DNA of 29,416 nt from Candidatus Dadabacteria bacterium (GTDB taxonomy: Bacteria; Desulfobacterota_D; UBA1144; Nemesobacterales; JADFKM01), in NCBI GenBank assembly GCA_022564935.1, contig JADFKM010000023.1, forward strand, positions 1 to 29,416. Reading direction: 5' to 3'. Below, one piece after another: positions 19,055 through 20,579 of the stretch. The notes beneath the pieces were generated by a model that made no database searches, was not told the DNA's origin, and saw only the letters and a list, made by a program, of their open reading frames with translations. Each line of letters opens with the position of its first letter. Positions within the stretch are counted from its first letter, which is position 1. Both the position numbers and the translations under genes were made by a program.

Positions 19055-20579
<1,525 letters not shown>

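Follow-up and report, generated by a model that had tools for sequence, protein, structure and literature searches.

The window, a stretch of 29,416 nucleotides that makes up one whole contig (C5, 29 kb) of a Candidatus Dadabacteria draft genome, carries the genes ilvB, ilvH and ilvC, followed by psd and a pssA-like gene (Table 1). Ketol-acid reductoisomerase, the product of ilvC, acts after IlvBH and before IlvD in the synthesis of valine, isoleucine and leucine. The reading frame of this gene comprises 339 codons and is interrupted by a sole internal stop, a TAG at codon 86. Translated through this codon, it matches the NF004017 equivalog over residues 1–336 with 555 bits, well above the cut-off of 336 bits, and contains the Pfam domains KARI_N (14–178) and KARI_C (184–326). 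A ten-residue motif at 187 and the motif FECLHE at 226, which we take to be the metal-site motifs of the family, are also kept. The solved-structure relatives listed for the protein are all ketol-acid reductoisomerases. In length, in both domains and in the metal-site motifs, the gene thus equals a known class I ketol-acid reductoisomerase (IlvC; NF004017, TIGR00465), from which it differs by the single TAG. The preliminary description of this DNA had presented it as an otherwise complete class I ilvC with both domains and its metal-binding residues, and the family and domain matches bear this out.

Table 1. Features of the ilvC region and further interrupted genes. Positions without a locus label refer to the window.
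Feature	Position	Strand	Remarks
ilvB, acetolactate synthase large subunit	17139..18944	+	intact; TIGR00118, 791 bits
ilvH, acetolactate synthase small subunit	18980..19564	+	intact; stop overlaps ilvC start
ilvC, class I ketol-acid reductoisomerase frame	19561..20580	+	339 codons plus TGA, broken once
In-frame TAG, codon 86 of ilvC	19816..19818	+	variable position, NADPH-binding domain
Longest in-frame restart past the stop, ATG at 19906	19906..20580	+	224 aa
psd, phosphatidylserine decarboxylase	20580..21260	+	start overlaps ilvC stop
pssA-like CDP-alcohol phosphatidyltransferase	21208..22032	+	
guaA	L183:1527, contig C89	+	in-frame TAG shortly before gene end
Deoxyhypusine-synthase-like gene	L180:401, contig C60	+	isolated TGA
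Thioredoxin-like (Thioredoxin_10) gene	L152:12120-13116, contig C34	-	two TAGs (12459, 13065)
Glycosyltransferase gene	L177:9765-10435, contig C30	-	compensating frame changes across a few codons; one more frameshift
PaaI-like/GST-like gene pair	L213:4820-5756, contig C27	+	two in-frame stops and frameshifts
GGDEF-like gene	L288:10875, relative G003	-	TAG at a Trp position, 40% identity

The gene is closely packed between its neighbours. The stop of ilvH and the start of ilvC share the sequence ATGA (19561–19564), and the stop of ilvC and the start of psd share TGATG (20578–20582), in agreement with the tight coupling to both genes that had been described before. The order ilvH-ilvC-psd is common to relatives of the same order, and the psd match next to ilvC is the only one in the genome. 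The genes ilvB, ilvH, ilvD and leuA are all intact in this genome, and the search for a second ilvC that had been proposed earlier detected none in the draft, which is 88.6% complete.

None of 109 ilvC homologs, the comparison with related genomes that the preliminary description had called for, contains an internal stop, and the one found here is more than a chance occurrence. The alignment of the homologs is ungapped at codon 86, and the TAG must therefore be a base substitution and not an insertion. The column itself is variable (A 47, G 22, P 19, S 11, K 6, R 4). Among the residues previously listed as restorable by one substitution, Lys and Ser do occur at this position in homologs, but the others on that list do not. 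Elsewhere, the frame retains 105 of 106 near-invariant columns, and 20 of the 109 homologs likewise depart from exactly one of these columns. The dN values against relatives are similar 5' and 3' of the TAG. Signs of a pseudogene, namely several lesions and relaxed constraint, were looked for in ilvC and are absent, the TAG being its one lesion. The argument that a decayed gene would show more damage holds as far as the missing second lesion and the conserved columns go, but it does not exclude a recent loss. The absence of decay weakens only the case for an old pseudogene, as a very young one would lack these signs too, and the conservation on both sides of the TAG shows only that any loss of ilvC would be very recent.

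The distal part of the frame could in principle be expressed from an in-frame ATG at 19906, and residues 1–85 might then cooperate with the restart product as separate polypeptides. Such a split gene is hardly conceivable. The restart product would retain the C-terminal domain, but it is not plausible as a separate enzyme because it lacks the first 115 residues. The break would also fall inside the NADPH-binding domain (KARI_N, 14–178), residues 87–115 are conserved although they would not be made, and among the homologs examined, those with an uninterrupted match are never split there.

A sense reading of the TAG would provide a simple way to a full-length enzyme, but the decoding apparatus of this genome offers little for it. 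TAG terminates five other genes of the window (7796, 10131 on the minus strand, 12641, 25490 and 27114) and 240 of the 734 coding-like frames that end in a stop within the 964 kb of this genome that were sampled, i.e., about a third, which confirms the earlier view that the codon is not globally reassigned. It is thus not depleted as a terminator, and the release factor RF1 is intact (511 bits, without an internal stop), being neither lost nor altered. A suppressor tRNA with a CTA anticodon, the search for which had been suggested, was not found when ARAGORN was applied to all 36 tRNA loci of the 88.6% complete assembly. This absence is not complete proof, since the assembly also lacks several tRNAs that would be expected, such as Ile GAT and Asn GTT. 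The best match to the pyrrolysyl-tRNA synthetase family TIGR02367 scored 22.3 bits against a cut-off of 178, which speaks against a pyrrolysine system. The RNA fold 3' of the ilvC stop is no better than that of shuffled sequences. Readthrough of UGA has been described for a tRNA-Trp with an anticodon stem of 4 bp (PMC13092985); this explanation was rejected, the stem having 5 bp here. No literature on Dadabacteria with stop codons was found. As a side observation, ARAGORN draws a mismatch within the anticodon stem of a tRNA-Glu(CTC) (L144:15288-15363, minus strand, contig C90).

The ilvC stop is not unique in this genome but is an ordinary member of several isolated lesions in the draft. These were surveyed in 964 kb of the draft, about half of the genome, by comparison with 1.19 Mb of the same-order relative G003, covering 408 genes with matches and 124,695 aligned codons, and by a coding-potential search. 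Most of the survey relied on this one relative; it is blind to damage at the ends of genes and in those genes that match nothing in the part of G003 that was sampled. Two of the interrupted genes, named guaA and deoxyhypusine synthase by reading their sequences and not by a family scan, have no stop in any of 29 aligned relatives. The TAG of guaA stands at a position that is Val in 25 of 29 relatives (the residues there are Val, Ala, Arg or Thr), and the TGA of the deoxyhypusine-synthase-like gene corresponds to Cys in 29 of 29. Selenocysteine is unlikely at the latter because no SelB scored above the cut-off in the genome. The two stops lie 1527 and 401 bases, respectively, from a contig end. 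Both TAGs of the thioredoxin-like gene replace a Trp that is invariant in seven of seven homologs, and the gene carries no other damage; that random errors would strike one gene twice in this way is hard to accept, and the pattern suggests some real pseudogenes in this draft as well. Real decay is also what the PaaI-like/GST-like pair resembles. A gene for an NtrC-like regulator has one frameshift. A stop between two frames at L214 was discarded as a broken gene, as it marks an ordinary gene boundary (ctaA-like and ctaB-like by eye). The reverse search, with G003 against the genes of this genome, yielded one convincing in-frame stop, that of the GGDEF-like gene in Table 1, and one frameshift. 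Because the counts are small and the drafts differ in quality, the comparison is suggestive and does not amount to a measured error rate. Four of five such in-frame stops are TAG, as can be expected from codon usage (P 0.18–0.21), and the excess of TAG over the other stops is not significant.

These further stops also bear on decoding. They add in-frame TAGs in two more genes, which would suit a suppressor or near-cognate tRNA that translates codon 86 at useful levels, as would the purifying selection still visible 3' of the ilvC stop and the tolerance of codon 86 for several residues; a suppressor tRNA could sit in the assembly gaps, along with the missing Ile GAT and Asn GTT species. However, the homolog residues differ between the sites (A/G/P/S/K/R in ilvC, mostly V in guaA, W and W in the thioredoxin-like gene) and a TGA is affected too. 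No one recoding rule accounts for stops that fall on different residues and include TGA as well as TAG. A genome-wide reading of TAG as Trp, prompted by the two thioredoxin-like sites, was dismissed, since a third of the genes end in TAG and Trp is not the residue aligned with the other TAG sites. Efficient suppression would, moreover, extend a third of the proteome, given the share of genes that end in TAG. What the gene has in common with pyrrolysine or amber-suppressor decoding is an in-frame TAG inside a conserved gene; it differs in that no pyrrolysyl-tRNA synthetase, CTA tRNA or consistent residue was found, and in that TAG is a common stop. With an intact RF1, a normal tRNA-Trp and no fold signal to set beside these points, the suppressor-tRNA read-through offered by the preliminary description loses its footing. 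It is very unlikely, and it is kept at all because the tRNA set is incomplete. A dual meaning of TAG, mostly a stop but decoded internally in ilvC, guaA and the thioredoxin-like gene with the help of a suppressor tRNA that fell into the gaps, is slightly more improbable still.

Two explanations named earlier, a sequence error and a fresh mutation, stand after this analysis, the former in view of the other isolated nonsense codons and frameshifts of the draft, the latter in view of the single lesion amid conserved sequence. The TAG probably, if by no means certainly, is a consensus error or the base of a minority strain; that the base itself is wrong is what we infer. The TAG would have entered the consensus through faulty base calling or assembly, or because the assembler chose a minority-strain allele, and most cells of the population would carry an intact, ordinary ilvC with a sense codon at position 86 and make ketol-acid reductoisomerase. 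This account is favoured because other intact-looking genes carry scattered lesions and no stop-reading machinery was found. Local errors that corrupt protein-coding sequences are documented for uncurated metagenome assemblies (PMC7111523). The present case resembles them in its fragmented draft, with isolated stops and frameshifts in conserved genes, and in that two of the draft's stops lie near contig ends. Against an error speak the position of ilvC in the middle of its 29-kb contig, not at an end, and the resemblance of the double TAG in the thioredoxin-like gene and of the several lesions in the PaaI-like/GST-like pair to real decay.

The competing account is a genuine and very recent nonsense mutation, by which the sampled strain, or a part of the population, would have lost ilvC and would take up branched-chain amino acids. 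It is possible but less probable than a consensus error or minority-strain base. One lesion in an otherwise conserved gene fits a young null allele, and the premature stop within an otherwise complete frame is what a recent nonsense pseudogene would display. Since the thioredoxin-like gene, with both TAGs at invariant Trp positions, and the PaaI-like/GST-like pair, with several lesions, look truly broken, a recent loss of ilvC stays a rival to be reckoned with. The gene differs from a recent nonsense pseudogene, however, in that a second lesion is missing and the rest of the pathway is intact. The same kind of lesion occurs in guaA, and, as ilvC overlaps the only psd match that was found, its early termination could have a polar effect on phospholipid synthesis. 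A joint loss of guaA, ilvC and others in a free-living prototroph that keeps ilvB, ilvH, ilvD and leuA is unlikely, which leaves a consensus error or the base of a minority strain as the best single account. If the TAG were true and fixed, auxotrophy for branched-chain amino acids would be predicted in this lineage. A lone stop in an essential-looking gene of a draft should be weighed against the other stops and frameshifts of that draft before recoding or auxotrophy is concluded.

The draft comprises 1,993,734 bases in 104 contigs and is 88.63% complete. Its fragmentation and incompleteness, together with the nature of its nearest relatives, suggest that it is a metagenome assembly. By ilvC, the nearest named relatives, at about 73–77% identity, are drafts from metagenomes that bear the label Candidatus Dadabacteria or Deltaproteobacteria, and the closest same-order genomes reach 79–81%; the relatives compared share the order at closest, none being of the same family or genus. 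In one of them, G007, the ilvC match comes in two pieces (contig C24:8673-9470) that form one frame of 270 aa, in which about 100 middle residues are absent.
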